Origin: Pseudanabaena sp. BC1403
GTDB taxonomy: Bacteria; Cyanobacteriota; Cyanobacteriia; Pseudanabaenales; Pseudanabaenaceae
Length of the DNA stretch: 64,000 bases
Direction of reading: 5' to 3'
NCBI RefSeq assembly: GCF_002914585.1
Contig: NZ_PDDM01000001.1
Location: 186,001 to 250,000, forward strand
The notes under the pieces were generated by a model, which saw only the letters and a program-made list of their open reading frames with translations, did no database searches and was not told the origin of the DNA. The position numbers and the translations under genes are program-made. Shown piece after piece: positions 23,803 through 58,285 of this stretch. Position 1 is the first letter of the stretch. The number at the start of each line of letters is the position of its first letter.

Positions 23803-23867
23803 AAAACCTATAGAATCCTAAATAGTTTGAGAGAGTACGCCGCTCTGAAGCGCTCTCTCTTAAACTA

Positions 23868-24647: not shown

Positions 24648-24804
24648 TAATAAGTTGTATTTAATATTGCAATAGAAGAAATATTGGATGTCAGGCAAAA
24701 GAACTTCAGAAATCTATGATTGAGATTTTCAAGTTAGACAGACTGAAAACCTCAATGTAGATTTCCTTTAGGAACAAGAACCTCTGAAGTAATAAATGGA
24801 GTAT

Positions 24805-39307: not shown

Positions 39308-39380
39308 GCTGGTGTAGCTCAGTTGGTAGAGCAGCTGATTTGTAATCAGCAGGTCACGAGTTCGAGTCTCGTCCCCAGCT
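39308..39380 (+). tRNA. trnT: tRNA-Thr (anticodon TGT)
   Basis: A 73-nt cloverleaf without encoded CCA. D arm GCTC...GAGC, anticodon stem GCTGA/TCAGC around TTTGTAA (anticodon TGT), T arm ACGAG-TTCGAGT-CTCGT and discriminator T are all clear. The acceptor stem GCTGGTG pairs with CCCCAGC except for T6 against C67. A tyrosine recombinase gene begins 133 bp downstream, so the 3-prime end is the probable attachment site of the mobile element to the right. Confidence 0.95.
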
Positions 39381-39404
39381 TAATTTTCATATCTAGAAAC
39401 GCCT

Positions 39405-39512: not shown

Positions 39513-40613
39513 ATGAGCCAAAATGAGATCGACGGGCGGATCTCCCAAGCAAACGGGAGATTAAAAGCGGCAAGTGTTGGGGTAAGCATTGAAAGACAGG
39601 GAAACTGTTTATATTTACGGGGTACTTTTCCACCAAAGCCAAATTCGCAATTTAAAACAGCCCGACAGCAAAAATTCGCGTTGGGTGTCCATGCGAATCC
39701 TCTTGGGGTGAAATTAGCTGAAGCCGAAGCCCGAAAAGTTGGAGCCTTGATAGATTGCAAAGAATTTTCATGGTCACCATACTTAAAAGATGCAGTTAAC
39801 TCTGTGACCTGCGGCGACTGGGTAGAAAAGTTTGAAAAAGATTACTTTGCAAAGCGCGATCGCAATCCCAAAACGCAAACCACATGGACTCGAAGCTACT
39901 GGGAAGTTTTAAAGCGATTGCCTTCTGATGAGGCATTATCCTCAGAAATTCTAAAAGATTTGATTCTGAGAACAAAGCCCGATTCTCGCAGTCGCCAAAA
40001 TTATGCAATGGTTTGCAATTCTCTAGCCAAATTCGCCAATTTAGATGCAGATTTCTCTCTTTACAGTGGCAATTATTCGCCACGCAAAGCAACACCCAGA
40101 GATTTACCAACTGATGAGGCAATTCAAGAGGTTTATTACAAAATATCTAACCCTGACTGGCAATGGGTTTATGGAGTAATTGCCACTTACGGAATAAGAC
40201 CTCACGAAGTTTTTTATCTAGATTTTGAAGATTTACCGATCGCAACCGTGACCGATGGCAAAACTGGCGCGAGACGTGTGTGGGCTTGTTACCCTGAATG
40301 GGTTGAAACCTTCCAAATAAAAAACGTTTGCTTACCATCAGTCACAGGTAAAGCAAACGTTAATTTAGGAGAGCGTGTGAGCAAGGCTTTTAAACGATAT
40401 GGAGTACCATTTGCTCCTTATGATTTACGCCATTGCTGGGCTGTGAGATCGCTTGAGTTCGGGCTTGATATTTCATTAGCCGCGCAACAAATGGGACATA
40501 GTACAAAGGTGCATAGCGATTTGTATCACCATTGGATTAGCGATCGCCATCATCAAAAAGCATACGATTTGCTCATGCAGAGAGCAGATCGCCCCAAGCC
40601 ACCAAATAGATAG
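39513..40613 (+). CDS. Tyrosine recombinase / phage-type integrase
   Basis: 366 residues. The C-terminal catalytic domain shows the Arg in GIRPHEVFYLDFED, the HxxR box in YDLRHCWAVRSLE, the later His/Lys region MGHSTKVHS and the nucleophilic Tyr in DLYHHW. The N-terminal 150 residues form the arm-binding and core-binding parts. Its position just downstream of tRNA-Thr, reading away from it, is the usual arrangement for an island that integrates into the tRNA 3-prime end. It should catalyse integration and excision with the attachment core in the tRNA. An excisionase was not identified; the ribbon-helix-helix gene at 58403 is one candidate. Confidence 0.93.
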   Translation: MSQNEIDGRISQANGRLKAASVGVSIERQGNCLYLRGTFPPKPNSQFKTARQQKFALGVHANPLGVKLAEAEARKVGALIDCKEFSWSPYLKDAVNSVTCGDWVEKFEKDYFAKRDRNPKTQTTWTRSYWEVLKRLPSDEALSSEILKDLILRTKPDSRSRQNYAMVCNSLAKFANLDADFSLYSGNYSPRKATPRDLPTDEAIQEVYYKISNPDWQWVYGVIATYGIRPHEVFYLDFEDLPIATVTDGKTGARRVWACYPEWVETFQIKNVCLPSVTGKANVNLGERVSKAFKRYGVPFAPYDLRHCWAVRSLEFGLDISLAAQQMGHSTKVHSDLYHHWISDRHHQKAYDLLMQRADRPKPPNR

Positions 40614-40696: not shown

Positions 40697-41071
40697 TTAT
40701 ATATTGCAATCACGCTTAATTATCCGTTCAAGCAGACCTTGCATATATTTCATTGATTCTTGAAAGCTATCAATCCTAGCCTCAACAATTTGCCGAACCA
40801 TTTCAGTGGTTACAGATGAAGAATTAACCCTTTCTCCTAACGCCTCATTATTGGCTAAGGTGACCTGATGAATTGCGCTAAGTTTCTCGTTTTGAGCCGT
40901 TTGATGCTTCTCCACATTATCTAAACGATTATCAACACCAGTAAACTTATTGTCCAGTTCATTCTCTAAGTCTGAAAAGCGAGTGTTAATCCTTTCAAAT
41001 TTAGTTTCTAGCCGATCGCGTTCTGAGCTAGCTGCCCAGCGTCTAAGGAGATTTACAAATTTGTCTAGCAT
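40697..41071 (-). CDS. Hypothetical coiled-coil protein of the mobile element
   Basis: 124 residues. Most of the chain is heptad-repeat coiled coil (DLENELDNKFTGVDNRLDNVEKH), ending in a basic C-terminus (ERIIKRDCNI). It is the last gene of a five-gene minus-strand run that starts at 42710. No known family. The shape would suit a structural or stalk protein, or a DNA-binding accessory. Confidence 0.65.
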   Translation of the reverse strand: MLDKFVNLLRRWAASSERDRLETKFERINTRFSDLENELDNKFTGVDNRLDNVEKHQTAQNEKLSAIHQVTLANNEALGERVNSSSVTTEMVRQIVEARIDSFQESMKYMQGLLERIIKRDCNI

Positions 41072-41109: not shown

Positions 41110-41487
41110 TTATATCCCATAGGGATTTAGAATCGCGTTAAACCCTATCAGATCTAATTTTTTAGAAGTAGTAGGGGGAACCCATTGCCAGACCTCCACG
41201 AATAGCCCTTTGTGATACACAACAGGCTGAAATCTGAGATAGTAGCTACCCAAATCGGTTTGCATATCAAAATTCAACTGCTCATCAAAGCCAACAAAGA
41301 GCTTAACGCCCCTAACTCCACCCGTGAACTGTTGCCACAAGTCCCCAGCTTTTCGCCATTTGCGACGCTTTATATCGGTGACCTTAATAGCTATGTGAGC
41401 AGATGAAAGAAGGGAAGGAATAAGAATGGCATCAACGCGACCCACTCCAATATTGAAACTGGTCACGCTGACCCAACTCATTCCCAT
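41110..41487 (-). CDS. Hypothetical protein of the mobile element
   Basis: 125 residues, beta-rich, not recognised. Notable features are a basic patch (DIKRRKWRKAGDLWQQFTGG) and an aromatic C-terminal half (YYLRFQPVVYHKGLFVEVWQWVPP). It overlaps the end of the upstream gene (41478) by 10 bp, which supports a coupled operon. No signal peptide or membrane helix. Confidence 0.65.
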   Translation of the reverse strand: MGMSWVSVTSFNIGVGRVDAILIPSLLSSAHIAIKVTDIKRRKWRKAGDLWQQFTGGVRGVKLFVGFDEQLNFDMQTDLGSYYLRFQPVVYHKGLFVEVWQWVPPTTSKKLDLIGFNAILNPYGI

Positions 41488-41693
41488 GCTCCTTCTTCTT
41501 CATCATCAAACTCGTCATACTCGCCACCAAGGGCATACTCGATCGCCGCCTCAAAAGAAACAGTTTCGAGTAAACCCGATCCTGCACGCTGAACCACACA
41601 TTGAGAGCCGTCAAAGTCTACAGGCAAGGAGCCATTAAGAATCTCATGAAAGCCCTCATCCCAAGGGAGCATAATAAGGCGGCGCTCGATCAT
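41478..41693 (-). CDS. Small acidic hypothetical protein
   Basis: 71 residues from the ATG at 41693, which overlaps the upstream stop as ATGA. The longer TTG start at 41708 is less likely. The C-terminus is strongly acidic (EYDEFDDEEEGAWE). It is sandwiched between two larger genes with overlaps on both sides, so translation is probably coupled. Function unknown. Confidence 0.6.
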   Translation of the reverse strand: MIERRLIMLPWDEGFHEILNGSLPVDFDGSQCVVQRAGSGLLETVSFEAAIEYALGGEYDEFDDEEEGAWE

Positions 41694-42301
41694 ACGACGG
41701 TTGCCCAATCAGCAGCAGTAATAAGCCCTGCATATGTTCGGAATGTGTCAGGGATAGTATTTGAAGGATCGTAAAAAGTATTAGAGCTAACAGATGTAGC
41801 GCTAGCACCTTTACCACTTAGAGTCAACGATTGTACCCGTGGAGGTTTTGGAAAGCTTGCCCCAAATACTAGATCCTGTTCTGTTCCAGTAACTTCCTTA
41901 ATACCCAGTGTTGCGAAATTAGCCCCAAGCTTTGCTTTTTGGCTTTTCTTCATACCCCAAGCATATTTGACCCCGTTGACTGTGACGTAAACAGGGATTT
42001 GAAATGTAGATCTTGATTTTCTGCCATTGGATTTTGCTTTGACAATATCCCAACCAGCCGCGATCGCCGCAGCAATAGCCGCTGGTGCGATAAAGCTGGA
42101 ATTAGTACCAGTGGCAAAAGTTTTAGAAGCACGTTTGGGCTTTGGATGATTGGCTTTGAAAATCAGCCCAGTGACTGGAGTTGAAGCATCAAGGGTTTGA
42201 TGCCCTAATATAGTGCCTTTAGATTCCTCTAGCGTGGTACGAAAACCATATTTATGGTCTGCGTATGGCGCTTCGAGCGGCACAAAAACTAATCGAGACA
42301 T
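41690..42301 (-). CDS. Hypothetical protein, possible structural protein of the element
   Basis: 203 residues, not recognised. Basic and Ser/Thr/Ala-rich. A central Ala-rich hydrophobic stretch (SFIAPAAIAAAIAAGWDIV) is followed by a Lys/Arg-rich run (KAKSNGRKSRS) and a beta-rich part (FQIPVYVTVNGVKYAWGM...VFGASFPKPPRV). Low-complexity composition and gene context (next to similar 70-125-residue proteins) suggest a particle or surface component, but this is inference. It starts 58 bp after the 42360 gene on the same strand. Confidence 0.6.
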   Translation of the reverse strand: MSRLVFVPLEAPYADHKYGFRTTLEESKGTILGHQTLDASTPVTGLIFKANHPKPKRASKTFATGTNSSFIAPAAIAAAIAAGWDIVKAKSNGRKSRSTFQIPVYVTVNGVKYAWGMKKSQKAKLGANFATLGIKEVTGTEQDLVFGASFPKPPRVQSLTLSGKGASATSVSSNTFYDPSNTIPDTFRTYAGLITAADWATVV

Positions 42302-42359: not shown

Positions 42360-42710
42360 CTAAGCAGGGACAGCCGTTGTTTGAGCCTTGTTCAGAGGTG
42401 CACGGCTATTAAAGCTATAGGTCGAGGTGACATAGAAGCTATTAGCATCCGTATCAAAAGAGGGAACCCCAGAAACTGGTTGAGGATAGCTAGCAAGCTT
42501 AGTTGTATTAGCAGAATTCGCGTTAAAAGTATCTTGAGCATCGCTCGCAACATCAAGCAAAGCTGTCAAGAACTCTGCAACTTTTTCGTCAGTGAGTGAG
42601 ATCGCAGATTCACCCATCAAGATAGATAGATCGATAGAAAGGACTGCCCCTGTCGCACTAAAAGCAGTCGATCCAATCGCGGTATTTAAATCAGAAAATT
42701 TGAGATCCAT
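42360..42710 (-). CDS. Hypothetical protein, first gene of the leftward operon
   Basis: 116 residues, Ser/Thr/Ala-rich and acidic (ATGAVLSIDLSILMGESAISLTDEKVAEFL), ending PLNKAQTTAVPA. No Cys, no signal peptide and no known family. It is transcribed away from the palindromic operator at 42723-42787 and is the first of five minus-strand genes. A high-copy structural protein is one possibility. Confidence 0.6.
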   Translation of the reverse strand: MDLKFSDLNTAIGSTAFSATGAVLSIDLSILMGESAISLTDEKVAEFLTALLDVASDAQDTFNANSANTTKLASYPQPVSGVPSFDTDANSFYVTSTYSFNSRAPLNKAQTTAVPA

Positions 42711-42908: not shown

Positions 42909-43112
42909 ATGATATTACGTGCATATCCACTGCTTAGCACACGAAGTAAACGCGCCATGCTCCGCACAGTTTGGCGATATGGCAGAGCGTACCAATACAT
43001 CCCAAGAAGCAATCTTTTAATGAGGCTAAGTAGAGTACTGGGATTGAGCAAAAGCGACGCTTATAACTTGTTGATGACAGAAAGAGAATATTTGCTAAAG
43101 CAACAAAAATAA
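42909..43112 (+). CDS. Small basic hypothetical protein
   Basis: 67 residues, very basic N-terminus (STRSKRAMLRTVWRYGRAYQ) and a helical C-terminus (VLGLSKSDAYNLLMTEREYLLKQQK) with a possible helix-turn-helix-like spacing. It could bind nucleic acid. It is first in the rightward operon and its stop overlaps the next start (TAATG). Not recognised. Confidence 0.65.
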   Translation: MILRAYPLLSTRSKRAMLRTVWRYGRAYQYIPRSNLLMRLSRVLGLSKSDAYNLLMTEREYLLKQQK

Positions 43113-43918
43113 TGGAATTACAACAGACTTATTCTCGGACACAGCAAATACTTTCAGCCTTTGCCGCTAATGATTCATCCATGAGAATCATTTACCAACC
43201 ATCGGCAATTTCGCCCTATGACAGGGTGCAAACTCTGCGCTTTTATGGGTTTATTACTTCTCTACGAATGAAGGTAGACATCCAAAGTCTCAATGAGGCG
43301 GATTTACCAGATTTGGAGGCGGATGCGACAAGGCTAGAGCGATTGACTGCATTGCGAAATATGGAATGGCGATCGCCACGGAAACAGATCACTTTCTTTC
43401 TGAGAACGGCAAATGTCTCTTGGCAACCCATATTTGATATCAGCTTAATCAATCGCTTGCCATACTATGCCGTGAACCTGCTGCCATACCTGACAGACAA
43501 CATTAGTTTTGATACATCAAATGATTGTCTGATTGGTGCGCAAATTACCAATGCGGGTTATGGACTTTTAGAGGGCGCTGATCGAGTAACTCTTTATGGT
43601 TCGGTTCGTGAAGAAATAACCACTTTGCCAACTGATGCAAAAGAAATTAGCTTTGCAACGCCTCACAGTTGGACGATAGATGATACCTCAAGCCTTATTC
43701 TTCCTGCTAATCCAAACCGCCAACAAGTGACCCTAGTTAATACCAGCTTGACGGATGAAGCCTTTATCAATTACGGGGGAATGGCTAGCCTTGGTCAAGG
43801 CATAACCCTTATGAGAGGCGGTGGCAGCTACGAGATAAATATGAGCAATTTGTATCGTGGGGCTATCTCTGCCATTTCTGCGAATCCACTTACACTGACG
43901 GGAATAGAGGCGGTCTAA
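43112..43918 (+). CDS. Hypothetical protein, possible structural component
   Basis: 268 residues, beta-rich, no signal peptide and no Cys cluster. It reads as two parts. About 1-140 is mixed and charged (DADLPDLEADATRLERLTALRN-like helix). About 150-268 is strand- and Gly-rich (LVNTSLTDEAFINYGGMASLGQGITLMRGGGSYEINM), which resembles receptor- or surface-binding beta domains. No family is recognised. Start and stop both overlap neighbours by 1 bp, so it belongs to a coupled operon. A role in a particle is inference. Confidence 0.65.
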   Translation: MELQQTYSRTQQILSAFAANDSSMRIIYQPSAISPYDRVQTLRFYGFITSLRMKVDIQSLNEADLPDLEADATRLERLTALRNMEWRSPRKQITFFLRTANVSWQPIFDISLINRLPYYAVNLLPYLTDNISFDTSNDCLIGAQITNAGYGLLEGADRVTLYGSVREEITTLPTDAKEISFATPHSWTIDDTSSLILPANPNRQQVTLVNTSLTDEAFINYGGMASLGQGITLMRGGGSYEINMSNLYRGAISAISANPLTLTGIEAV

Positions 43919-44103
43919 TGTTTGATTTAGATTCATGGGTTATGCCAGAAAATCGAGGCGATCGCCAAAAGGAGATTGAGGCGATCTACTTGCCTTACAA
44001 ATGCGGCAAAATCGAAGCCGAATTAATCGCCATGAGATTTTTTAATCATCAAACAATCGCAAACACAATCATCATTCAACCTAATCCCATGAGGCTGCTA
44101 TGA
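43918..44103 (+). CDS. Small hypothetical protein
   Basis: 61 residues (MFDLDSWVMPENRGDRQKEIEAIYL...). The start overlaps the previous stop by one base and the stop overlaps the next start as ATGA, which supports a real coupled gene despite its size. No known domain. Confidence 0.6.
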   Translation: MFDLDSWVMPENRGDRQKEIEAIYLPYKCGKIEAELIAMRFFNHQTIANTIIIQPNPMRLL

Positions 44104-45995
44104 GAGGCGCTGCAAGAATTGGGGGAAGAGCCTTTCGCCCAGCTCCCTCAAGTGCTCCCAGAGATGAATTTAATCCGCTTGAGGCGCTCGATCTGGTTGG
44201 AGATTTGCCAGTAGCTCCAACTTTGGAGCCAATTAATGATGAATGGTCATGGTCGTTAGGCGCTGAACCAGCCGATCCGCGTGATTGCTCTCGCTATCCA
44301 GCTTCGCCCTATTGTGGCGAGATTCCAGCCTCTACAATTCCTTTTGGCTACGAGCCTGAGATAAAAACCAATGGGTGTGAGACTTGCCTTTATGTTTACC
44401 CCGTGATTTTGTGGCTAAAAGTCACACCCCAAGTAATTTGCCGTCGCGATCCAAATTGCGATGTACCAAAGCCAACACTTAATAAAGATGAGCTATCAAA
44501 ACACGCCCCAAAGCCTTTTGATGAGAATGTTAGGGCAAGCGCATACAAATCGCCAGAATGTGCCGCAAGGGAGAGCATAACGAATTATTTTTACAATCGC
44601 CAGAACGAGCTGGCGATCGCGGCGCTAACTGGTGAAAACATCGGAGGGGATTCCTATGAGTTCAGAAACCAAAAAGTAGAGTATATGGGGACTAGAAACT
44701 TAACAGTTGGGACTGGGGAAATAGTTGATAGTGTTTCCTTAGAGCTGCATCTCGCTTATCCCATCTCTGTATATGATACAGGTGCATATATTTATCACTA
44801 TATTGGGGATCTACAACAAAGGATAGACTTTGTAAGATCTGGCGAAAGGAGGCGAAAAGGGAGCAATGATGAATGGACAGTATTTGGTAATAGTGTAGAT
44901 CTCAGGAACTGGAAGCCGATCCCATGTCCTGATAGACCTCGCCCCCCTAAGATTCTCCCCCCGCCGCCATTTGGGGGCGGTGGAGGTGGCTTTGGAGGTA
45001 GAAAAGACAAGGACAAAAAAAGAGGGAAAGATATGTGCTGTAATGATTGCGCTGATTCTAAAGAAAATACTGAGAAGCTATTAAGAGAACTCAAAGAGAT
45101 TAAGAAAGTTCTTGGCACTGGGAAGCTTGAGAAAGCTCTAAATGCTGCTGTAGGTATAGGTGATGACAGCATTACTGCAATCGTGAATCTAATTGCAAAG
45201 AGATTAGGGACTAGCGCTTATCCCATAGAAGTACCACAGAGCCTTTTGCAGGGCTTGGGGGATGGGACACAGAAAATGGAATCTAATGCTGAGTTTTTGC
45301 ACTGGCTAACCTATCAAATTGATAGCTTAGTGGGTCAATTTCCCGTTGATATAGATGTAAAAGATATTGATCCATTGAAAGAGGGAGAGCAAAAGAAAAC
45401 GATTCAAATACCCAATATTGCTGAGGCGATCGCAGAAATGTACGCGCTAACGCTCAAGAGTTCTGTTAATCAAGAGGTTGAGTTAAACATGTTGCTACGT
45501 CTTGCCGCTGAAATAATTGCGACAAAAAATGCTTCTGTTGTAGCGCAGGATTACGCCCGTGCTAACGCGACGTTTTTGGGATACAAAGCTAATTACAAAC
45601 CAAGGGAATTACAATACAATTTCGATTTTACTGGTGCAAGTTTAGACCCTAGATCGAAAGAGCCAATCGTATTAGAAAAGCTCTTGAAAACCGTGACTGG
45701 ATATGTTCAGGGCTGGGAGATTGCCGACAAAGAAACCGTTGTGGGTTTCCTACAAAAATTGATGTTTTCGGCTGGAATTATCAAGGCTGTATTTTTCCGA
45801 GGTAAAGGACAGCAAAAAGAATTGAATCGCGAAATATCGGCAATGACAGCCGATGAGACGGCACAAGAAGAGAAATTTGAGGCATTTATCAAAGAGATAA
45901 ATGATCCAAATTCTCGCTTTAATAAAAACGCTCAAGATAAGCCCGAAATAAAGGACGAAACCCCACCAGACACCAAGAAGGGAGGGGCAAAATGA
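44100..45995 (+). CDS. Large unrecognised protein of the mobile element
   Basis: 631 residues. The first 120 are Pro-rich with several Cys (DPRDCSRYPASPYCGEI, NGCETCLYVY). A mid part (150-260) is mixed alpha/beta. Then come a Pro/Gly hinge (PRPPKILPPPPFGGGGGGFGG) and a basic CC motif segment (KKRGKDMCCNDCADSKENTE). The C-terminal half is helical (ELKEIKKVLG, ALTLKSSVNQEVELNML), with a polar tail. The modular layout suits a minor structural or adaptor protein. No family recognised. It overlaps both neighbours by 4 bp. Confidence 0.65.
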   Translation: MRGAARIGGRAFRPAPSSAPRDEFNPLEALDLVGDLPVAPTLEPINDEWSWSLGAEPADPRDCSRYPASPYCGEIPASTIPFGYEPEIKTNGCETCLYVYPVILWLKVTPQVICRRDPNCDVPKPTLNKDELSKHAPKPFDENVRASAYKSPECAARESITNYFYNRQNELAIAALTGENIGGDSYEFRNQKVEYMGTRNLTVGTGEIVDSVSLELHLAYPISVYDTGAYIYHYIGDLQQRIDFVRSGERRRKGSNDEWTVFGNSVDLRNWKPIPCPDRPRPPKILPPPPFGGGGGGFGGRKDKDKKRGKDMCCNDCADSKENTEKLLRELKEIKKVLGTGKLEKALNAAVGIGDDSITAIVNLIAKRLGTSAYPIEVPQSLLQGLGDGTQKMESNAEFLHWLTYQIDSLVGQFPVDIDVKDIDPLKEGEQKKTIQIPNIAEAIAEMYALTLKSSVNQEVELNMLLRLAAEIIATKNASVVAQDYARANATFLGYKANYKPRELQYNFDFTGASLDPRSKEPIVLEKLLKTVTGYVQGWEIADKETVVGFLQKLMFSAGIIKAVFFRGKGQQKELNREISAMTADETAQEEKFEAFIKEINDPNSRFNKNAQDKPEIKDETPPDTKKGGAK

Positions 45996-47533
45996 GCGCA
46001 CTTAAGATCGTCAAGCAAACACTATACAGCCGTGAAATTCGGAAGAAGCTGACCCCAAACAAAGGAATAAGAACTCTAGATCTCTCACATGCAATCACAC
46101 GCCCTGATGAGAAAAACATCCTAGATAAGATTGGAGATTTCTTTAATAAATCTGGCTTAAATGGTTTCCTCTCAAGTGCTTTAAATATCTTGGGATGGGC
46201 TGGCGGTGGATTAGTTACGGGTATTTTCGGATGGCTACGTGACCGAACAGAACAAATAAAGTCCTTTAACTGGAATGCTTCAGACAAAGAATTAGAATCG
46301 CTAATGGAGAGCCAAAACGTTCGCATAGCATCGGCTTGGGGTTCGGCTTTGGGTAGCTCTTTTGGCTGGCTGGCTGGAATTGGGATTGGTTACGGTGTTT
46401 CCTTCCTATGTCCCGTCATCGGCGGGGCTGCCCTTGCGAAAACTGTCGCGGGTAATGTTGGCAAAGAGGCGATCGGAGAAATCACCAGAGGCATTAGCGG
46501 CGCGATAACTCAGACGGTTGGAGCTTTAGCTAATAACGCCTTGATTTCTGGCTACATCAATTACAGGAAGCTACTCAAATCAATCCCAAACAATGTCCTG
46601 ACAAGCATTTATGGGCAAAGCACGGCTGCTTTTATTCAAAAAAACTGGGGTTCGGAAGGGCAGCCCGTCATATCTTTCAATTCTAAAATGGATGAATTTG
46701 TAGAAAACATCCAAAACAATAAGCTGAGAGCCTTTACTGAGGCATTCTTAGAAGAATCTTGGGACTCATTCACTGAGGCGGGAATGATCGTCGCGATGGA
46801 GATAGATGCAGCTTACTCACAGGCTAAACGAGCTAATGAGTCTACGCAGGGCAAAAAGCGCACAGTAAGGCTCACACCTGATAAGCGCCGCCAAGAAGAG
46901 CAATTGATTTTGAGTGCTACTACTAATGATTTGGAAGCAAGCACACTCGAAACCCTGAACAATTACAGATTAATTTCTAATCGTGATGTAGGTCAGATCG
47001 TTGGGATGCCCGCTGATGATTTTGTCAGTGCGAAACCATTACGCCGCCAATTACAAATTATTTTCAAGGCGAAAAAAGAGCCGCCTTGGAGAATGCCCAA
47101 TGGGAAACAGGCTAAAAAATTCGAGGTGACCATACCCGATCCGATTATTGGCTTGACTTGGAGCAAAATAAAACTTGCTGCTAAACCCTATACATGGGGA
47201 AAATTCAGAGCTACTGCACATCTAGACAATGGTAGACAGATGGCTGTTTATGGCTCCTCTAAGAGTGAGGCTGAAAAAACTTTACGCAGGATGCTGACTT
47301 TATCCACGGCGAAACTTTTGAATCTCAACGTAACTGAAGAGGTAGAGAAGAAAAATATAGATTTAAAGAAAGATCCCACAGTTGCTTATCCAGCCTATGC
47401 AAACTTGCTAATTCGTAGAACTACTACAGGTGAAGGACGCAGCTTTACCGATGGCACGAAAGCCAGTGAGGATCGGATAAGAATCGATTTATGGACAAAT
47501 GAAGCACCGCAAGGATTACCACCACTCAAATAA
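45992..47533 (+). CDS. Unrecognised protein with glycine-rich membrane-active segments
   Basis: 513 residues. Residues about 50-190 carry several Gly/Ala-rich hydrophobic segments (LNILGWAGGGLVTGIFGWL; GSSFGWLAGIGIGYGVSFLC; VIGGAALAKTVAGNVG) of glycine-zipper character that could span or disrupt a membrane. The rest is soluble and charged, with a C-terminal domain from about 340 (YTWGKFRATAHLDNGRQM...). This layout recalls phage tape-measure, pore or DNA-ejection proteins, but no homology is established. It overlaps the previous gene as ATGA. Confidence 0.65.
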   Translation: MSALKIVKQTLYSREIRKKLTPNKGIRTLDLSHAITRPDEKNILDKIGDFFNKSGLNGFLSSALNILGWAGGGLVTGIFGWLRDRTEQIKSFNWNASDKELESLMESQNVRIASAWGSALGSSFGWLAGIGIGYGVSFLCPVIGGAALAKTVAGNVGKEAIGEITRGISGAITQTVGALANNALISGYINYRKLLKSIPNNVLTSIYGQSTAAFIQKNWGSEGQPVISFNSKMDEFVENIQNNKLRAFTEAFLEESWDSFTEAGMIVAMEIDAAYSQAKRANESTQGKKRTVRLTPDKRRQEEQLILSATTNDLEASTLETLNNYRLISNRDVGQIVGMPADDFVSAKPLRRQLQIIFKAKKEPPWRMPNGKQAKKFEVTIPDPIIGLTWSKIKLAAKPYTWGKFRATAHLDNGRQMAVYGSSKSEAEKTLRRMLTLSTAKLLNLNVTEEVEKKNIDLKKDPTVAYPAYANLLIRRTTTGEGRSFTDGTKASEDRIRIDLWTNEAPQGLPPLK

Positions 47534-47535
47534 TT

Positions 47536-47802
47536 ATGCCAATTAGCAACCCTCTCCACTCTCCTCCAAATCTACTGATAGAGTCAACCGATCCGATCGC
47601 AACGCCCGATCGAGATCGCACTTTTTGGCTAAATGCTCTAACTAAAAAGCTTTGGATTGCGATCGCAACTAATTCGCCTGCGGATTGGGTTGCGATCGGC
47701 GCTGATATGCCCGTAATTGATGCAGCTACCATCCTGAATAAGATTTTGGTTCAGGACGGACAGGTACTGACCACAGAAGATCATGTAATTTTTGAGGATT
47801 GA
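47536..47802 (+). CDS. Small fibre-like hypothetical protein
   Basis: 88 residues. The central segment (RTFWLNALTKKLWIAIATNSPADWVAIG) has the same pattern as the repeats in the next protein (T-x-x-V-Y-x-A...DWxEL). It starts 2 bp after the preceding stop and ends 6 bp before the next start. It is likely a small partner or split part of the fibre-like protein. Confidence 0.6.
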   Translation: MPISNPLHSPPNLLIESTDPIATPDRDRTFWLNALTKKLWIAIATNSPADWVAIGADMPVIDAATILNKILVQDGQVLTTEDHVIFED

Positions 47803-47808
47803 ATTGAT

Positions 47809-48765
47809 ATGGCCAGACACTCGAAATTGACAAATCCTGATGATTTGCACTATGCAAAAATTAGAACGTTTTCTGGGAATGTTGCTGATTTTGTGCCCGA
47901 TTTTATCGATCAATTGATAGCAGCAACTGACACGAATAGAGTCTATCGAGCTACTGGGCTAGCCGCTGGTAACTTGGTTGAGCTTTTGCCCTCTGTTGAT
48001 GGCGACGGCGGCAGCTCCAAAGTGAGATTCTTTAATGGAATTGCGATCGCCCCTGATAACCTTGAGCAATTGCTTATCGATACAACTACTAACCGTGTTT
48101 ACCGTGCGATTGGGCTAGATGTTGGTGACTGGCTGGAATTGATTGGGGGTAGTGATGGACAGCCTCCAGCAATCTCAATGGGTGGAGGCGCTCCAAATAT
48201 TGTCCCTGTAAAAATTGGACAGCTATATTTTGATTTTATTTCACGGATTCAGTGGGTATCTGTTCGTGAGGGCGCGCTCAATGGCTGGGTAGAGTTCAGC
48301 CCAATTCCTCAAAAATTATTTGCCTCATCTAGCAATAGTTCCAGTCAAACTATTAGCCAATATTTCAGGGTTTTCTATGCAGATATAACCGATCCTGCTG
48401 ATATCGAGGCGGGGGATTTTACCTTTACAGAGAAGCTGGGAGAGGTTTTCATCTCTGGGCAAACAGAAATAAGCGATCTGGTTTTTCCGAAAGGCAGAGG
48501 CGCGATCGCACTGGTTCCACAGATTGAAGCTATATATCCTAATTTAATTCAGCTAGACGCTGAAGAATTTTATACAGGTAGCAATTACGGGTCTCTATTT
48601 GTGATCCGAGAAACACCTTTCAGCCTTTTTGCTAATGATGGTGATGGAGATTTCGCGATCGGCAAAAAATATCTATGGTTGTCAAGCTACTGGTGGGATA
48701 CTACGGGCGGCTTCACAGGCGAAATTAAATTTGATATGCGAATAAATATTAGTGATGCACCATAA
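47809..48765 (+). CDS. Tail-fibre/spike-like protein with internal repeats
   Basis: 318 residues. Two N-terminal repeats of about 45 residues align: QLIAATDTNRVYRATGLAAG and QLLIDTTTNRVYRAIGLDVG. A third, weaker copy (LYFDFISRIQWVSVREG) follows near residue 140. The C-terminal 150 residues are beta-rich with many aromatic and Gly residues. Short repeated stalk units before a variable beta domain are typical of phage receptor-binding fibres. No named family can be assigned. It is the last gene of the rightward operon and is followed directly by a terminator. Confidence 0.65.
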   Translation: MARHSKLTNPDDLHYAKIRTFSGNVADFVPDFIDQLIAATDTNRVYRATGLAAGNLVELLPSVDGDGGSSKVRFFNGIAIAPDNLEQLLIDTTTNRVYRAIGLDVGDWLELIGGSDGQPPAISMGGGAPNIVPVKIGQLYFDFISRIQWVSVREGALNGWVEFSPIPQKLFASSSNSSSQTISQYFRVFYADITDPADIEAGDFTFTEKLGEVFISGQTEISDLVFPKGRGAIALVPQIEAIYPNLIQLDAEEFYTGSNYGSLFVIRETPFSLFANDGDGDFAIGKKYLWLSSYWWDTTGGFTGEIKFDMRINISDAP

Positions 48766-48802
48766 AAAAGGAGCCAGTCAAATTGACTGGCTCCTTTTTT
48801 AT
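48762..48802 (+). terminator. Terminator of the rightward operon
   Basis: Arms 48762-48781 and 48783-48802 (ATAAAAAAGGAGCCAGTCAA and complement) form a strong stem with an effective AAATT loop and a T-run. It overlaps the last codon of the fibre-like gene. Confidence 0.9.
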
Positions 48803-48810
48803 GCGATCGC

Positions 48811-49790: not shown

Positions 49791-49972
49791 GATCAGGGAA
49801 TAGCAGCATACTATGCTCTTTGGGACTATCGTGAATTCATCCTAAGTTTTTAATGATAAATATTGCAATTGTTCTAGATCATCATTATTTTAATAGCAAC
49901 ACTATTTTTTGTGGTATATGCTTGTTGTTAAGGTGTTACTATGAGAAATCTTGAAAAAAATTGAGGATGGGA

Positions 49973-52636
49973 ATGATTTCTGGGTTGTACAGCACGGTTT
50001 TGCAACTTACATCATCGGCATCAATACTGCCGACTACTGATCGTGCAAGAATTTTGAACGATTTTGCTCACAATTTTGGGTGGACTCCAAGTGATATTTT
50101 AGAAATCCCCTCAACGAATGAATTTGCAAATGCTCATTTAATAATCGAACATGGTCTGGAAAATCAAGCTGTTATAACTTTTCTTCAAAGAAGATATTCG
50201 GAGCTTAGTTATGAAGAGAGAAAACGTTTACTCAACATATCCTATAACAATTTAGTTGATTGGCATATTCAGATCGAGTCTGACCAAATTTCGTATATTT
50301 TTAACCGTTGCGATCCAGAGAAAATTGTAGAAACTCGTCGTATTTCTCATGATGATTTAGATAATTTGAGAAGTAAAGCATTTGAGCAAATTTCAGGAAA
50401 GAGACAAAACCCGAATCTTCCTGCTCTAGATGATGCCCTAATCGATACAATTTCATTTTGGAAGCGCAATTTATATTCTGAGATGGGAAACTCAATCTCT
50501 AATAGAGAGTTGTCTGCTCTGTTTAATGCAATTATATTTACTAGAGCGGTTGAAGATAATTTTCGTCGTCTTCACCCATTTAGGGCTGAGGAGTTTTCAA
50601 ATTCGCAAGCTTTGTTTGAGAACGTTATTCAATCTAGAGGTGAACAATTAACAATTCGCAAAGCAATTTTTAGAACTCTCAAATATTTTTATCAAAAAGA
50701 AATACCAGCATATCTAATAGATGAATCTTTACTTAGTGCTTTTGATAGTTTAGATGGACAAACCCTAGAAGTCCTTGTAAGAGATTTTTATAGAATCAAA
50801 TACGCAAAGCCATATAAATATGACTTCTCTCTCATATCCAAACATGCTCTGAGTCGTATTTATGAAAGATATACTAGTCTTTTAAGATTTACAGAAAATG
50901 ATGTCGATCAGCTTAGTTTCTTTCCACCTTTACCAGAAGAAATACCAAACAAAGCTCATGGTAGTGTTTATACGCCTCAATTTATAGCAGGTTTTTTTGC
51001 AAGATATCTACGTGAGCAAATGCCACCGATGGAGTTTAAGAGGTTGCGTACATTGGAACCTGCTATCGGTTCTGGTATTTTTTTGAGAACACTTTTGGAG
51101 ATTCAATGTGATCCTACCCAAGGTGGCATAACAACTGAATTTATCGAAACAGCATTTAGCAATGTAACTGGTCTAGATATTGATCCTAATGCATGTCATT
51201 CAGCTCTCTTATCACTTTCTTTGCTCCATTTAGTTCTTACAGATAAATTACCATCTAATCTTGAAATAAAAGTGGAGGAAGCTATTAAGTATACTCAAGA
51301 CCATCCAGAATTAAAAAATAGTTTTGGTGCTGTTATTGCTAATCCACCATTTGTATCATTGGGAGATCAAAATGAAGCAACAAGAGCGAGAGTTGCTGAT
51401 TTTATGGGAACTGCTTCTCAGGGAAAAGTAGATTTATCTTTAGCTTTCTTAAAGATAGCGATAGAATCCTTGAAACCTGGTGGATATGGTCTATTTGTTT
51501 TACCCCATAAATTCCTTTTGTCAAAAAGTGATTCTGGAATTCGCAACCTTATTTCTCAAACAGCTTGGATTCGTTGTTTAGTAGATCTTTCCGCTGTTCA
51601 AGTTTTCGGGGATGTCAATACTTATGTTATTCTTCTGATTTTCCAGAAACGCTATAGTTTTGATCAAGCTCAAGCACCTATTGCTACTATTGCTCAATGT
51701 CAAGAATTATTGGGGAAAGCGTTACAAGATATAGTCGAAGGTCGTCAGTCAGAAACCAAATTTTACAATATTTTTAATGTGACTCAAGATGTTTTTGAAT
51801 CTGATGAATGGATAATACAGACTCCTAAAACTGCTAGTATCGAACGCAAATTAAAATTACTCCCAACTATTGGTAAGTTTATGAATATTCGAGTAGGCGT
51901 TCAAACTGGTAGTAACAAGGTATTTATAGTTCCAAGAAGGCAAGTACCAAAAGGAGAAGATAGTATTTTTATTCCATTCCTTTCAGATCGTGAAATGGAA
52001 TCTTATACTACTCCTAAACAGACAGAAAGTTATTTGTTTTATCCATATGCTGAAGGTGAAAAGCTTAATGAAGATGATCTTAAACTAAGATATCCAAAAA
52101 CATGGGAGTACTTATTACAACATAAAGTAAAGTTAGAGACTCGTACCGCAGTGCGAAACAATCAAATTCTTTGGTGGGAATTAGAAAGATCTCGATTTGA
52201 ATATTTACAGCAAGCAAAAATTGTTAGTCCACACTTAGCGATTATGCCTAGATTCTCAATTGATAGTGAGGGTAAATTTGCTGTTGTTCGTTCTCCAGTG
52301 ATTTTTCCTAAGGAGCGCAATGTTGAAAGTGAGCTACTGCGCTACTTTGCTGCTGTCTTAAATTCGAGTGTTTGCTATCGTTACATATCCGAACATTCTC
52401 ATAAATATGGCAGTGGGTATTCTATGTTAGAACCTAAAAGCTTGCTTAAGACTCCTGTTCCAGATCCAACAAAAGTACATTCCTCTACCATGCACAACTT
52501 GCTACTTCTCGTTGATAAACGTCTCCTTGCTTCAGGCTCTGAAATTATAGATATCGAGACCGAAATTGACCATATTGTAGCCGATTTATACGGATTTAGT
52601 GAGGAAGAACTGGCTATATATGGCACATCAAGATAA
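49973..52636 (+). CDS. N6-adenine DNA methyltransferase (type II/IIG-like)
   Basis: 887 residues from the ATG at 49973 (GAGG 8 nt upstream; earlier starts at 49961/49967 are worse). The methylase core shows YTPQFIAGFFARYL, motif I LEPAIGSGIFLR (near 361) and motif IV ANPPFVSLG (near 456), defining adenine-N6 methylation of the Eco57I/TaqI class. A C-terminal recognition region includes GVQTGSNKVFIVPR (near 642) and LEPKSLLKTPVPDP. The N-terminal 310 residues are helical and unassigned; I saw no PD-ExK motif, so restriction may lie in the next gene. It is a likely defence or protection module of the element. Confidence 0.85.
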   Translation: MISGLYSTVLQLTSSASILPTTDRARILNDFAHNFGWTPSDILEIPSTNEFANAHLIIEHGLENQAVITFLQRRYSELSYEERKRLLNISYNNLVDWHIQIESDQISYIFNRCDPEKIVETRRISHDDLDNLRSKAFEQISGKRQNPNLPALDDALIDTISFWKRNLYSEMGNSISNRELSALFNAIIFTRAVEDNFRRLHPFRAEEFSNSQALFENVIQSRGEQLTIRKAIFRTLKYFYQKEIPAYLIDESLLSAFDSLDGQTLEVLVRDFYRIKYAKPYKYDFSLISKHALSRIYERYTSLLRFTENDVDQLSFFPPLPEEIPNKAHGSVYTPQFIAGFFARYLREQMPPMEFKRLRTLEPAIGSGIFLRTLLEIQCDPTQGGITTEFIETAFSNVTGLDIDPNACHSALLSLSLLHLVLTDKLPSNLEIKVEEAIKYTQDHPELKNSFGAVIANPPFVSLGDQNEATRARVADFMGTASQGKVDLSLAFLKIAIESLKPGGYGLFVLPHKFLLSKSDSGIRNLISQTAWIRCLVDLSAVQVFGDVNTYVILLIFQKRYSFDQAQAPIATIAQCQELLGKALQDIVEGRQSETKFYNIFNVTQDVFESDEWIIQTPKTASIERKLKLLPTIGKFMNIRVGVQTGSNKVFIVPRRQVPKGEDSIFIPFLSDREMESYTTPKQTESYLFYPYAEGEKLNEDDLKLRYPKTWEYLLQHKVKLETRTAVRNNQILWWELERSRFEYLQQAKIVSPHLAIMPRFSIDSEGKFAVVRSPVIFPKERNVESELLRYFAAVLNSSVCYRYISEHSHKYGSGYSMLEPKSLLKTPVPDPTKVHSSTMHNLLLLVDKRLLASGSEIIDIETEIDHIVADLYGFSEEELAIYGTSR

Positions 52637-53438: not shown

Positions 53439-55162
53439 CCTACATTCAGCAGGTTAAATTTAAAATAAGGTATTTTTAATTAAGAGCAATCAAAATAGCC
53501 AAATGCCTCAGATAGACGTACAAGACATAGACCATCTAGGTATAATTGCTGGGATAGTAGATGAAATCGGGATAGTAGAAATCATAGATCGGGAGCTAGG
53601 AAGCCATCCGCAAGAGAAAGTAAGTGCGGGGCAAGTGGTGAAAGCGATGATATTGAACTGCATGGGTTTCTTGACGGCCCCTTTGTATTTATTCAGTGAC
53701 TTTTTTTTAGGAAAAGCGACAGAACATCTAATCGGAGCAGGAGTAAAAGCAGAATATTTGAACGATAGTCGCTTGGGGAGAGTGATGGATCAACTATACG
53801 CATATGGCATCACGCTAATATTTGTGAAGATAGCGACAGAGATGTGTAAACGATTTGGAGTAAGCGTCAAGAATACGCATCTTGATGGCACAAGTATGTC
53901 AGTGCATGGGAAGTATCAAACAACGGAAACAGGAGAAGAAAATTTAGTCGAAGATGACTCAGCCGAGCCAGTAGCGATCGCAATTACGCAAGGATACTCA
54001 CGAGACCATCGCCCAGACTTGAAACAATTTACATGGCATTTACTGACTAGTGAAGAAGAAGGAATCCCCATATTCATGAATATTGCAGATGGGAACAAAA
54101 CAGACCAGAGCGCTTTTCCAGAGGTAATCAAAGCATTTCAGGCAGAATGGGAAGGAGAACAACCAGACTTGTACGTAATGGATGCAGCCTTCTATAGTGA
54201 AGCAAATCTGAGGGAATTTGGTCATAGCATCAATTGGATTAGCCGAGTACCAGCAACGATAAAAGCCGCACAGGAATTAATCCAAACTATATTGCCTGAA
54301 CAATTCAGTGAGCAGAAAGACCACAAAGGTTATCGTTTTTGCGTAGTCTGTAGTACTTATGCGGGTATCAAACAGCAATGGATTGTTGTCGAAAGCCAAC
54401 AACGCATGGAATCCGACCTCAAAACTTTATCGAAGCAGATAGAGAAAGCCTTAAAAGAGAAAGATAAAGGTCTAAAGAGCTTAATGAATAAAAGTTTTGC
54501 CTGTGAAGCTGATGCCCTCAGTGCGATCACGGACTTTGAGAAAACGCTGAATTACCACAGTCTTGATGAACCTAAAATCCTTGCTCAACCGCATTATTCG
54601 CAAAGAGGTCGTCCCAATACTGAAGCAACTCATCATTCCTTTCACATTCAGTCAACTTTAGTCGAGAACCCTGTAATCATTGCTGTTCATCGTCAACAGG
54701 TTGGGCGCTTTATTCTTGCCACCAATTCGCTGGATTCTGAAAAATGGACTGAATGCGAAATCTTACGGGAATATAAGGGACAGCAACCTACGGAACGGGG
54801 ATTTCGCTTTCTCAAAGACCCTCTATTCTTTGCTTCCAGCGTTTTTCTCAAAAATACGAAACGGATCATGGCTTTGGCGATGATCATGACTCTTGCTCTC
54901 ATGGTCTATAGTTTGGGGCAAAGACAACTCAGACGGGCTTTAGAGAACGCCAATGCGACTCTTCCTGATCAAAAAGGTAAGCCCTCCCCTCGCCCTACTT
55001 TACGTTGGATACTTCAGTGCTTTCTCTCTGTCCATTTGGTCTTTCTTGACCATCTTAAATATCAGATTAAGCTTAATGATAGACAAAATCTAATTTTGCA
55101 GTTTCTCGGAGCCTCTTCTCGTAAATATTATTTTTTGTCTTAAATAACCTGCTGAATGTAGG
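53439..55162 (+). mobile_element. IS1634-family insertion sequence, complete
   Basis: 18-bp perfect terminal inverted repeats at 53439-53456 (CCTACATTCAGCAGGTTA) and 55145-55162 bound 1724 bp. A 6-bp target duplication CGAAAT flanks it (53433-53438 and 55163-55168). It encloses one intact transposase gene. Perfect ends and duplication indicate recent insertion. It landed downstream of the methyltransferase partner gene without disrupting an obvious ORF. Confidence 0.93.
53503..55143 (+). CDS. IS1634-family transposase
   Basis: 546 residues, full length. It has the family N-terminus (DIDHLGIIAGIVDEIGIVEIID), the DDE catalytic segments HLDGTSMSVHGKY and YVMDAAFYSEANL, and the late Glu region YKGQQPTERGFRFLKDPLFF. 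It catalyses cut-and-paste movement of the surrounding element. It starts 46 bp inside the left inverted repeat. No frameshift is seen, so it may be active. Confidence 0.95.
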   Translation: MPQIDVQDIDHLGIIAGIVDEIGIVEIIDRELGSHPQEKVSAGQVVKAMILNCMGFLTAPLYLFSDFFLGKATEHLIGAGVKAEYLNDSRLGRVMDQLYAYGITLIFVKIATEMCKRFGVSVKNTHLDGTSMSVHGKYQTTETGEENLVEDDSAEPVAIAITQGYSRDHRPDLKQFTWHLLTSEEEGIPIFMNIADGNKTDQSAFPEVIKAFQAEWEGEQPDLYVMDAAFYSEANLREFGHSINWISRVPATIKAAQELIQTILPEQFSEQKDHKGYRFCVVCSTYAGIKQQWIVVESQQRMESDLKTLSKQIEKALKEKDKGLKSLMNKSFACEADALSAITDFEKTLNYHSLDEPKILAQPHYSQRGRPNTEATHHSFHIQSTLVENPVIIAVHRQQVGRFILATNSLDSEKWTECEILREYKGQQPTERGFRFLKDPLFFASSVFLKNTKRIMALAMIMTLALMVYSLGQRQLRRALENANATLPDQKGKPSPRPTLRWILQCFLSVHLVFLDHLKYQIKLNDRQNLILQFLGASSRKYYFLS

Positions 55163-56336: not shown

Positions 56337-57533
56337 GTGAGTCAGCAATTACATTTTTTCAATCCATCACAAACGGAACTCGATCTAGAGTTGCCTAAAC
56401 GTGGAAACCCAAATTTTAAAAACAAATATTTTGCGGGCAAGACTAAACCTGTAAGGATACCGATCGCTTTAGTTAACCAAGTCCAAAATTATCTAGAGAG
56501 TCTTGAGATAGGAAATCAGCAAAGCTTTATTCCAGAAAATGAAGTATGCAAGATTAGCGTTACGCTATTAAAACTCGATCCTAAGAGGTTTCAATATAAG
56601 CTCGTTCATGGCTCTACAGGCTCTACAGGGAGTTTGAGAGAGATTAAGCAATGGGATAGCAATCTAGCGGGTTTAATTTTGGTATGGCGCGATCCTTTTG
56701 ACCGTAAAACCTATGTGGTTAATGGTCACAATCGCGTAACCCTAGCGATGAATTTAGGTGTTAGTGATTTATGGGTTAGATATATCAATGCTGATACAGA
56801 TATAGAAGCAAGGGCGATCGGTGCGCTTGCAAATATTGCTGATGACAATGGCACTGCGATAGACGCTGGTAAGTTCTTTCGAGACAGAAAGTTAAGCGCT
56901 GGGAACTTGCCTAAAAATATCGACATGAAAAAAACGATCTGCTCGCAAGGTTTAGCGATCGCCAATCTACATGATGATTTATTTGACTATCTAGTACAAG
57001 GTGAGATGAGTTTAGCGATCGCTGTTGCCATTGGTGAGACATTGCCAGATCGAGATCTGCAAGTTGATTTGTATGAACTACTTAAAAAAGAGAGACGCAA
57101 TATCAGCGCTGATGTAATTCGAGAGCTAGCTGATATCGTGCTAAATGCCTCTAGACAGAATAGCGTAACGCTATTTGATTTAGGTTGTTTTATGGCTAGC
57201 AATGCCTTACAACTTGCAGAATTACAGGCTTATATCAAACAGCGATTGTCACGCGATCGCCGCCTATTTCGCACCGTCGCAAAGTCTCGCAATGCGGAAA
57301 GTTTGAGCCGTGCTAATAACCACATTGACCGTGATAAATCTGCACAAATTGCTGATGAGAGCGATTATGTTTTGAGGTTATTTGATGAGTTAAAGGCTTA
57401 TAAAAATAGCGTTACGCTATTGCTTAATGAGTTTGCTGATAGGTTAGGCAATGGCGAAAATTGCAAGGATGATTGCTATACAGCTATTTGTGAATATCTC
57501 ACTAGCGTGACTTTGCGAGATTTGGCAGCATAG
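56337..57533 (+). CDS. ParB/Sulfiredoxin-fold DNA-binding-like protein
   Basis: 398 residues from a GTG start. N-terminal module GNPNFKNKYFAGKTKPVRIP (about 22-41), then a ParB/Srx-type nuclease-fold segment around residues 105-150 with NGHNRVTLAMNLG (GHxR box). Helical and HTH-like parts follow (GLAIANLHDDLFDYLVQGEMSLAIAVAIGE resembles ParB helix-turn-helix), then a charged C-terminus. The likely role is binding the surrounding 17-bp palindromes for partition or transcription control. Three further copies lie inside the gene (56553, 57159, 57405), read in frame as SVTL, NSVTLF and NSVTLL. No ParA is visible in the window. A 21-bp hairpin (57526-57572) ends it. Confidence 0.75.
   Translation: MSQQLHFFNPSQTELDLELPKRGNPNFKNKYFAGKTKPVRIPIALVNQVQNYLESLEIGNQQSFIPENEVCKISVTLLKLDPKRFQYKLVHGSTGSTGSLREIKQWDSNLAGLILVWRDPFDRKTYVVNGHNRVTLAMNLGVSDLWVRYINADTDIEARAIGALANIADDNGTAIDAGKFFRDRKLSAGNLPKNIDMKKTICSQGLAIANLHDDLFDYLVQGEMSLAIAVAIGETLPDRDLQVDLYELLKKERRNISADVIRELADIVLNASRQNSVTLFDLGCFMASNALQLAELQAYIKQRLSRDRRLFRTVAKSRNAESLSRANNHIDRDKSAQIADESDYVLRLFDELKAYKNSVTLLLNEFADRLGNGENCKDDCYTAICEYLTSVTLRDLAA
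56553..56569. repeat. 17-bp palindromic site, intragenic copy 1
   Basis: ATTAGCGTTACGCTATT, one mismatch to AATAGCGTNACGCTATT, inside the ParB-like gene, read as ISVTLL. Confidence 0.8.
57159..57175. repeat. 17-bp palindromic site, intragenic copy 2
   Basis: AATAGCGTAACGCTATT, a perfect match inside the ParB-like gene, read as NSVTLF. Confidence 0.85.
57405..57421. repeat. 17-bp palindromic site, intragenic copy 3
   Basis: AATAGCGTTACGCTATT, a perfect match inside the ParB-like gene, read as NSVTLL. Confidence 0.85.
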
Positions 57534-57634: not shown

Positions 57635-57931
57635 TTATATCTGGCTTCTCAGAATATTTAGCTCATCAGTTGCAGGATCTACGTCCTCGCAAAATTCAAC
57701 TGCAATCTTAATTCTAACTTTGCCTTTCTTCCAAGTCGAGCCAACCATCAGTACTTCACAGTCAGCCCCATCAATTACCCAAGTTTGCTTTGTTATTTCT
57801 TCGCTCAACATTAGCTGTTGGTAAGCTAGATCAATATAGTCTTTAACCTTATATAAACTGCCATAAGTTAAAGGCATCAGAGGATCTCTAGCAATAACAC
57901 TATCAGGGAGCAGCGTGCGAAATTCAGACAT
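57635..57931 (-). CDS. KGK-domain protein
   Basis: 98 residues. The C-terminal half STWKKGKVRIKIAVEFCED carries the KGK signature (Lys-Gly-Lys followed by VRI and an EF(x)D end) of a small family found mostly in cyanobacteria and of unknown function. The N-terminal part (LTYGSLYKVKDYIDLAYQQ) is typical of the same proteins. It lies 3 bp downstream of the XRE repressor gene on the same strand, so it is co-transcribed with it. Confidence 0.75.
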   Translation of the reverse strand: MSEFRTLLPDSVIARDPLMPLTYGSLYKVKDYIDLAYQQLMLSEEITKQTWVIDGADCEVLMVGSTWKKGKVRIKIAVEFCEDVDPATDELNILRSQI

Positions 57932-57934
57932 TAG

Positions 57935-58285
57935 CTATCTCCCTGTACTCTCCGCGATAGCTAACAACTTTTCAGACACAACATGATCTATGACGGCAAT
58001 TTGATTCAAGCTCATACGCATTGATTTAATTTTCCCTACAAGACTGTCAAACTCTGAAGCTGAAGCTTTATCACCCTTAAGGCAGTCGTGCAAATTATCT
58101 AGACTCATGCCCAAAACTTTGGCAATTGCTACTAAGTTTTGATGATCAGGCTCTGAGAGGCAATTTTCCCAACCAGTTACCGCAGTATGACTTACACCAA
58201 GCATCCTAGCAAAAGCAGATTTACTCATTGAGCCTCGTTTTTGCTTTATTAACTCTGCTAGTTTTTCACGCTCTTCAAGTGTCAT
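57935..58285 (-). CDS. XRE-family HTH transcriptional regulator
   Basis: 116 residues. The N-terminal helix-turn-helix (about 8-65) is classical: LAELIKQKRGSMSKSAFARM then LGVSHTAVTGWENCLSEPD and LVAIAKVLGMSLDNLHDCL. The C-terminal 45 residues are helical and probably dimerise. It is divergent from the ribbon-helix-helix gene at 58403, with an operator array between them. This is the layout of a phage- or ICE-type maintenance repressor controlling itself and the rightward operon. Confidence 0.88.
   Translation of the reverse strand: MTLEEREKLAELIKQKRGSMSKSAFARMLGVSHTAVTGWENCLSEPDHQNLVAIAKVLGMSLDNLHDCLKGDKASASEFDSLVGKIKSMRMSLNQIAVIDHVVSEKLLAIAESTGR

Follow-up and report, generated by a model that had tools for sequence, protein, structure and literature searches.

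A 64,000-nucleotide stretch of Pseudanabaena sp. BC1403 (contig NZ_PDDM01000001.1, positions 186,001 to 250,000; hereafter the window) carries a run of seven rightward genes at 42909-48765. Together with the leftward genes that start beside it (the two halves hereafter called the cassette), this run probably constitutes the virion and receptor-binding module of a group of temperate, phage-like cyanobacterial elements that is as yet undescribed. Direct support exists for the boundaries of the integrated element that holds the cassette, for the conservation of the cassette, and for the predicted folds of two of its members.

The element occupies a tRNA-Thr gene. A tRNA-Thr(TGT), the integration target, was located by ARAGORN at 39308-39380 (+), and a repeat search identified a 57-bp perfect direct repeat of its 3' part, with attL at 39335-39391 (+) and attR at window-equivalent positions 64764-64820, 764 bp past the window end; the element is 25,429 bp long. 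A tyrosine recombinase (integrase) at 39513-40613 (+) was matched by PF00589 at E 6e-4, below the curated cut-off, and its relatives again adjoin tRNA-Thr in the genus loci L115, L116 and L119. The element also encodes an HTH_3 repressor-like regulator (57935-58285, -; Pfam), an excisionase-like protein (DUF1233 E 0.021 and HTH_17 E 0.0032, both sub-cut-off) and a 903-amino acid (aa) primase-helicase with DUF3854, D5_N and DUF5906 matches (61772-64000, continuing to 64483, +; Pfam and PHROGs). The general features of a temperate or integrative element, namely a tRNA attachment repeat, an integrase (sub-cut-off in Pfam), a repressor-like gene and a replication gene of its own, are all present. 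When the joined flanks were used to search for an empty site (junction at position 301), none of the matches listed from other genomes, starting on the tRNA side, reached beyond position 376, and the match in genome G386 (155-376) covers the tRNA and its terminator only, a similar terminator also being found inside the element.

The rightward run begins with a 67-aa basic protein (42909-43112, +) of weak helix-turn-helix similarity (E 0.1). It is followed on the same strand by a 268-aa protein (fam2; 43112-43918), a 61-aa gene kept in six genus loci (43918-44103), a 631-aa protein (fam0; 44100-45995) and a 513-aa protein (fam1; 45992-47533), and finally by two genes for proteins of 88 aa (47536-47802) and 318 aa (47809-48765). 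An earlier note on this DNA, made from the letters alone, had described seven overlapping or abutting genes closed by a terminator, and both observations held. The open reading frames (ORFs) and junctions (in order TAATG, TAATG, ATGA, ATGA, then gaps of 2 and 6 nt) were found at the noted places, and an intrinsic terminator hairpin at 48761-48803 (+) folded at -31.3 kcal/mol (z -10.1), with 0 of 200 shuffles equally stable. The seven genes are real, but the operon as then drawn comprises about half of the module, the leftward genes at 42710-40697 having been left out.

These five leftward genes (all on the - strand) start back to back with the rightward run and encode a 116-aa protein (family 7; 42360-42710; iterated hidden Markov model (HMM) families), a 203-aa protein (family 3; 41690-42301; HMM families, AlphaFold2 and hhalign), a 76-aa acidic protein (family 4; 41478-41708; family maps), a small 125-aa protein (family 6; 41110-41487; iterated HMM search and alignment) and, last, a 124-aa coiled-coil-like protein (40697-41071), which yielded weak matches to PHROGs of unknown function and coiled-coil Pfam models below cut-off, and which has homologues in four genus loci. 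The leftward set travels with the rightward run in genus relatives, and four of the five proteins belong to families of the wider loci. The 67-aa gene is oriented divergently to the leftward half in the window and in most mapped loci, and relatives of its product occur in 25 of 73 other loci. Coding of the cassette is supported by low ratios of nonsynonymous to synonymous substitution (dN/dS) among related loci, with medians of 0.075-0.142 in the seven families, out of nine, that had usable pairs (51 non-independent pairs); these comprise the 631-, 513- and 268-aa proteins and four leftward-module families, the 67-, 61-, 88- and 318-aa genes lying outside the set. A sigma-70 scan was uninformative (8 sites versus 12.2 in shuffles).

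Relatives of the 631-aa protein were present in 26 of 386 phylum genomes and the 513-aa gene in 7 of 26 genus genomes, the own genome included in each count. An alignment of seven 513-aa relatives retrieved 41 distinct loci from 84,980 species genomes, all titled cyanobacteria, some of which are the same records as in the 631-aa phylum set. A total of 74 loci was reduced to 67 by merging records with an identical large protein, and removal of eight without one large gene left 59 loci with both. The presence of the large genes is uninformative because the loci were chosen by one or the other of them; gene order was not subject to this selection, and the 513-aa gene directly follows the 631-aa gene in 42 of the 59 loci, lies 2-6 genes on in 16 and is placed otherwise in one. 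The 268-aa family or its C-terminal domain alone was found in at least 41 of these loci, integrase families in at least 24 and primase families in at least 16, the counts being lower bounds because the loci end at about 10 kb.

The cassette was also found on two circular plasmids, NZ_CP064893.1 of Tolypothrix PCC 7601 (20,757 bp) and NC_019743.1 of Allocoleopsis PCC 7113 (20,803 bp), both typed as non-mobilizable in PLSDB; further plasmid searches yielded no cassette plasmid beyond these two. Calothrix HK-06 (L067/L068) and Goleter (L063/L064) each have two copies, spaced by 20,327 and 18,006 bp, respectively. The copies are identical over 17,697 bp in the former and 12,997 bp in the latter, as far as the comparable sequence reaches in each; these pairs may represent either tandem lysogens or the assembly of a circular form. 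The assembly names of cassette contigs L065 and L072 give coverages of 235 and 360 (for the cassette contigs alone), which could mean multicopy extrachromosomal forms.

When the window element was compared with loci L113 and L114, six genes of regulation and replication were 95-99% identical (the HTH repressor 46%), and the 513-, 268- and 203-aa proteins 83-88%. The 631-aa protein reached only 59% identity, the 88-aa protein 58% and the 318-aa protein, along 122 residues, 45%, so that the outer genes either evolve faster or are exchanged. The 88-aa protein is 44-61% identical across seven genus loci and the 318-aa protein 42-53% across six, in four of them over partial length. The 61-, 88- and 318-aa genes had no relatives in the 73 other wider loci at E 1e-3, those found being all from the genus. 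The two genes that end the run are fibre-like and change quickly.

The 268-aa protein was modelled with two beta domains (AlphaFold2; predicted local distance difference test score (pLDDT) 91.6, predicted template-modelling score (pTM) 0.63), which we call jelly-roll-type from the strand pattern of the model and its matches. The model was compared with 980 PDB chains, of which eight reached Z >= 8. The top match was the receptor-binding domain of the PM2 spike protein P1 (2vve_B; Z 10.2 over 85 residues, model positions 175-268), followed by PA5104, a Pseudomonas protein of unknown function (Z 9.6); whole PM2 P1 (2w0c_L) aligned over 163 residues across both domains at Z 9.4 with a root-mean-square deviation of 12.6 A. 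Further matches were a Helicobacter phage cement protein (Z 9.0), the Ena2A fibre (8.8) and a nucleoplasmin-like core (8.0). BFVD gave 51 matches at E 1e-3; among those with names are several capsid, structural or tail-fibre proteins, whose TM-scores are low. Close alignments were obtained with two small proteins, of 89 aa (TMt 0.85) and 98 aa (TMt 0.79). The C-terminal domain was weakly matched by a PHROG of unknown function (E 0.025), as was a stand-alone relative of this domain at E 2.7e-4. Because of the fold model and structure matches, it is plausible that the 268-aa protein is a two-domain virion or fibre protein, and the link to PM2 may be taken as a lead.

Several proteins of the run were described in the earlier note as a proline-hinged multi-domain protein, a glycine-zipper protein and repeat-bearing fibre-like proteins, and these descriptions fared differently. 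The 631-aa protein indeed has a Pro/Gly hinge near residues 275-305, between a variable N part and a conserved C-terminal domain. The N half of the 513-aa protein is Gly-rich and hydrophobic, and its C-terminal domain is encoded as a separate gene in several loci; seven GxxxG motifs lie within residues 51-200, but 52 of 1000 shuffles reached this count, so that the zipper signal is modest. In the 318-aa protein, one clear internal repeat was confirmed (its score reached by 0 of 500 shuffles), but a third copy was non-significant (74 and 149 of 500), and the 88-aa protein demonstrated a weak likeness to repeats 2 and 3 (16 and 1 of 500) and none to repeat 1 (307 of 500).

Lysis and packaging genes were searched for in the relatives, one member per family being tested against PHROGs. 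The tested member of family 43 had an endolysin PHROG as its top match (E 2.8e-50), and that of family 28 had a PHROG of unknown function first (E 8.5e-40) and endolysin second (E 1.2e-16). These two endolysin-type families occur in 9 of the 59 loci; in six they lie on the same strand as a large gene and at most 3.5 kb downstream of it, and in three on the opposite strand. Family 39 has a lysin-like look but no PHROG match and is excluded from these lysis figures. Eight loci were counted as having P-loop ATPases of a single profile; the profile had drifted, and its 16 matches were reduced by six without the P-loop pattern and by L069 and L100. When four of these ATPases were tested, those of L115, L117 and L122 passed the FtsK or HerA cut-off and that of L026 fell below it. 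In a published account, the FtsK/HerA superfamily supplies the packaging ATPase of double-jelly-roll viruses, one group of which is without it (PMC5894146).

The strongest alternative, which we regard as unlikely, is that the genes make a surface appendage, an adhesin or a system of membrane vesicles carried by a plasmid, in which a fibre or vesicle coat would help an integrative plasmid to spread without a virion. A membrane-type 513-aa protein, beta-domain proteins, the match to the Ena fibre, the circular plasmids and a capsid that went unrecognised would all suit such a system. The endolysin-type genes, mostly downstream on the same strand, the phage-type primase-helicase and the variable fibre-like terminal genes argue against it. 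As for plasmid transfer, no relaxase passed the cut-off in the scanned window proteins (Relaxase_C matched the 124-aa coiled-coil protein at a sub-cut-off E 0.011), and the relaxase and mating-pair genes that mark a conjugative or mobilizable plasmid or an integrative and conjugative element were not found.

Several results weigh against a virion module. Pfam and/or PHROG scans of 25 distinct proteins of the window element, which covered the small ORFs in part, recognised no terminase, portal, HK97 capsid, other capsid or filamentous-phage protein, the single 'portal' match being confined to the end of a long profile. No lysis gene was recognised in the proteins scanned either, and neither the window element nor L113/L114 yielded a recognised FtsK/HerA-type ATPase. 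Pattern scans of IMG/VR with five queries found no relative, an absence that is weak because such scans find only relatives sharing short peptides, and tblastn with three queries against 50,697 phage records found none either. Three of 27 family-1 members (2 and 1) had weak tape-measure matches at E near 8e-4, a gene downstream on the Allocoleopsis plasmid matched a minor tail protein weakly (E 9e-4), and one small transmembrane protein matched a tape measure at E 0.007. A search of 38 family genomes for CRISPR (clustered regularly interspaced short palindromic repeats) spacers gave seven short matches outside carrier contigs, and of the three examined none lay in an array. Finally, the lead of PM2 P1 over the next fold match is small, Z-scores of about 8 may arise by chance, Ena spore fibres match too, and the two small BFVD proteins, the 98-aa one being from an uncultured tailed phage, align to one unspecified domain of the 268-aa model.

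The suggestion in the earlier note of a phage late operon without detectable homology can be set against these results. It is favoured by the tRNA-integrated element with its integrase, repressor-like and phage-type primase-helicase genes, by the endolysin-type genes of relatives, by the PM2 P1 fold match and by the variable fibre-like last genes, but capsid and packaging genes went unrecognised in the scans and the fold margin is small. Comparison of the cassette proteins with Pfam, PHROGs and PDB sequences produced nothing convincing, and four family alignments searched against PDB sequences gave a best E of 0.11, to interleukin-3. The general Pfam/PHROG scans turned up no match to Zot, the ATPase that marks filamentous phages, no search having been aimed at that family.

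A phage satellite, which would use the head of a helper phage and supply spikes and fibres of its own, is less likely still. Its case is made by the size of 18-25 kb, by the combination of integrase, primase and cargo genes, by a terminase and a capsid that were not recognised, and by a sub-cut-off Terminase_6N match (E 9e-4) in carrier genome G388. Terminase_6N (PF03237) was found above cut-off in none of 20 genomes, the own and five other carriers included, and the HK97 Phage_capsid profile PF05065 was absent from the own genome (4 of 14 control genomes were positive); both results speak against a resident helper, a lytic helper or other terminase families being unaffected. To our knowledge, no phage satellite has a large, conserved module of spikes and fibres, which we count against this explanation. 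The remnant of a decayed tailed-phage late operon, reduced to its tail fibre and baseplate part, would account for the fibre-like last genes, the weak tape-measure and minor-tail matches and the 98-aa tailed-phage protein, but is very improbable for a cassette that is conserved across cyanobacteria and under purifying selection; among the window proteins scanned, neither a terminase nor a head gene was recognised. By profile, the terminase, portal and HK97 capsid that would place the element among tailed phages (Caudoviricetes) were likewise not recognised.

If the cassette is a virion and receptor-binding module, the element would be a plasmid-prophage, some 18-25 kb in size, with tRNA-Thr genes as integration sites, and the seven genes would form the spike, membrane and fibre half of its structural module. 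Upon induction, the element would be excised, replicated by its own primase-helicase and assembled into particles. The 268-aa protein may form the vertex or spike, with a base domain and a head domain in a penton-like arrangement; the 513-aa protein would lie with its Gly-rich half in or across a membrane, the 631-aa protein may connect the spike layer to it, and the 88- and 318-aa proteins would be exchangeable receptor-binding tips. The leftward genes, chiefly the 203-aa protein or its substitute, could provide the shell or another abundant component, and the cell may be lysed by an endolysin of the kind carried downstream by some relatives.

A single ~100-aa domain is present twice in the 203-aa protein (hhalign probability 98.9, E 1.2e-17), and we propose this protein as a candidate major virion protein or abundant particle component. 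Its AlphaFold2 model (pLDDT 89.7, pTM 0.81) matched 0 of 169 chains at Z >= 2 and no PDB or BFVD entry at E 1e-3, which is no proof of a new fold. This family 3 is present in 31 of the 59 loci and family 15, of ~205 aa, in 11; the two are together in none, and neither is present in 17. Families 8 and 6 (24 and 22 of the 59 loci) also never occur together, with neither in 13. Fisher p-values for these exclusions were 7.7e-5 and 2e-7, respectively, which are not true probabilities because the loci are related. No relation was detected in profile comparisons of family 3 with 15, of 8 with 6, or of 6 with the 268-aa family. A narrower proposal, that the elements are temperate cyanobacterial viruses with a shell of the duplicated ~100-aa domain, its fold unmatched among solved or predicted viral structures, or of the unrelated alternative family 15, a lineage independent of HK97 and jelly-roll capsids, appears doubtful to us.

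Among known systems, corticovirus PM2 and the Vinavirales (e.g., Jorvik) share with the element a circular or prophage state and a membrane-type protein; the P1 spike is the top solved match of the 268-aa protein, and endolysin-type genes and FtsK/HerA ATPases occur in some relatives of the element. Unlike them, the element has no recognised double-jelly-roll capsid and its ATPase is not universal, and the structural match involves one protein by a narrow margin; its 18-25 kb also exceed the 8,762 bp given for Jorvik (PMC10589892). Simuloviridae resemble it in their 16-19 kb circular double-stranded DNA and extrachromosomal temperate state, and have single-jelly-roll capsid proteins; they differ in their archaeal hosts and in having two such capsid proteins, where here one two-beta-domain protein and a 203-aa protein without a fold match are found (PMC12642351). 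Tycheposons and the tRNA-associated integrases of marine picocyanobacteria are similar as cyanobacterial elements with tyrosine recombinases near tRNAs, a likeness by description of the integrases (PMC10187409). The Nostoc punctiforme prophages with tail genes are a different thing from the cassette (PMC12691664). The cassette is not named in the titles and abstract openings of the literature searched, which lay outside bioRxiv and most subscription papers.

If this interpretation is correct, hallmark-based surveys miss a temperate virus or virus-like group present across cyanobacteria, since nothing convincing in the profile libraries searched matches the particle proteins of this group. Recognition of the cassette would let prophage finders call such elements, and since two named strains carry small circular plasmids with it, the question is directly testable.

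The slot after the fibre genes holds defence-type cargo that differs among close relatives: a type II/IIG-like methyltransferase in the window (49961-52636, +; Pfam), a type IIG restriction enzyme in L113 (4967-7651) and a CHAT + AAA_35 protein in L116 (9898-11490). Farther along the window element, an insertion sequence (IS) transposase with DUF4277 and DDE domains (53503-55143, +; Pfam) is inserted, with an 18-base inverted repeat seen by eye at its ends. A 398-aa protein (56337-57533, +), ParB-like by eye, matched PHROG 21 'portal' at E 2e-42 in the PHROG scan, yet only over positions 1017-1314 of the 1362-position profile, a possible misnaming trap for automatic annotation. A 98-aa protein (57635-57931, -) belongs to a family mapped in 16 loci, to which a Pfam 'KGK' match may belong (matching member unspecified), and an HNH protein inside the element was recognised in the PHROG scan. 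Outside the element, very long ORFs of 1448, 1089 and 2549 aa were observed on the minus strand at 14309-32454 of the window.

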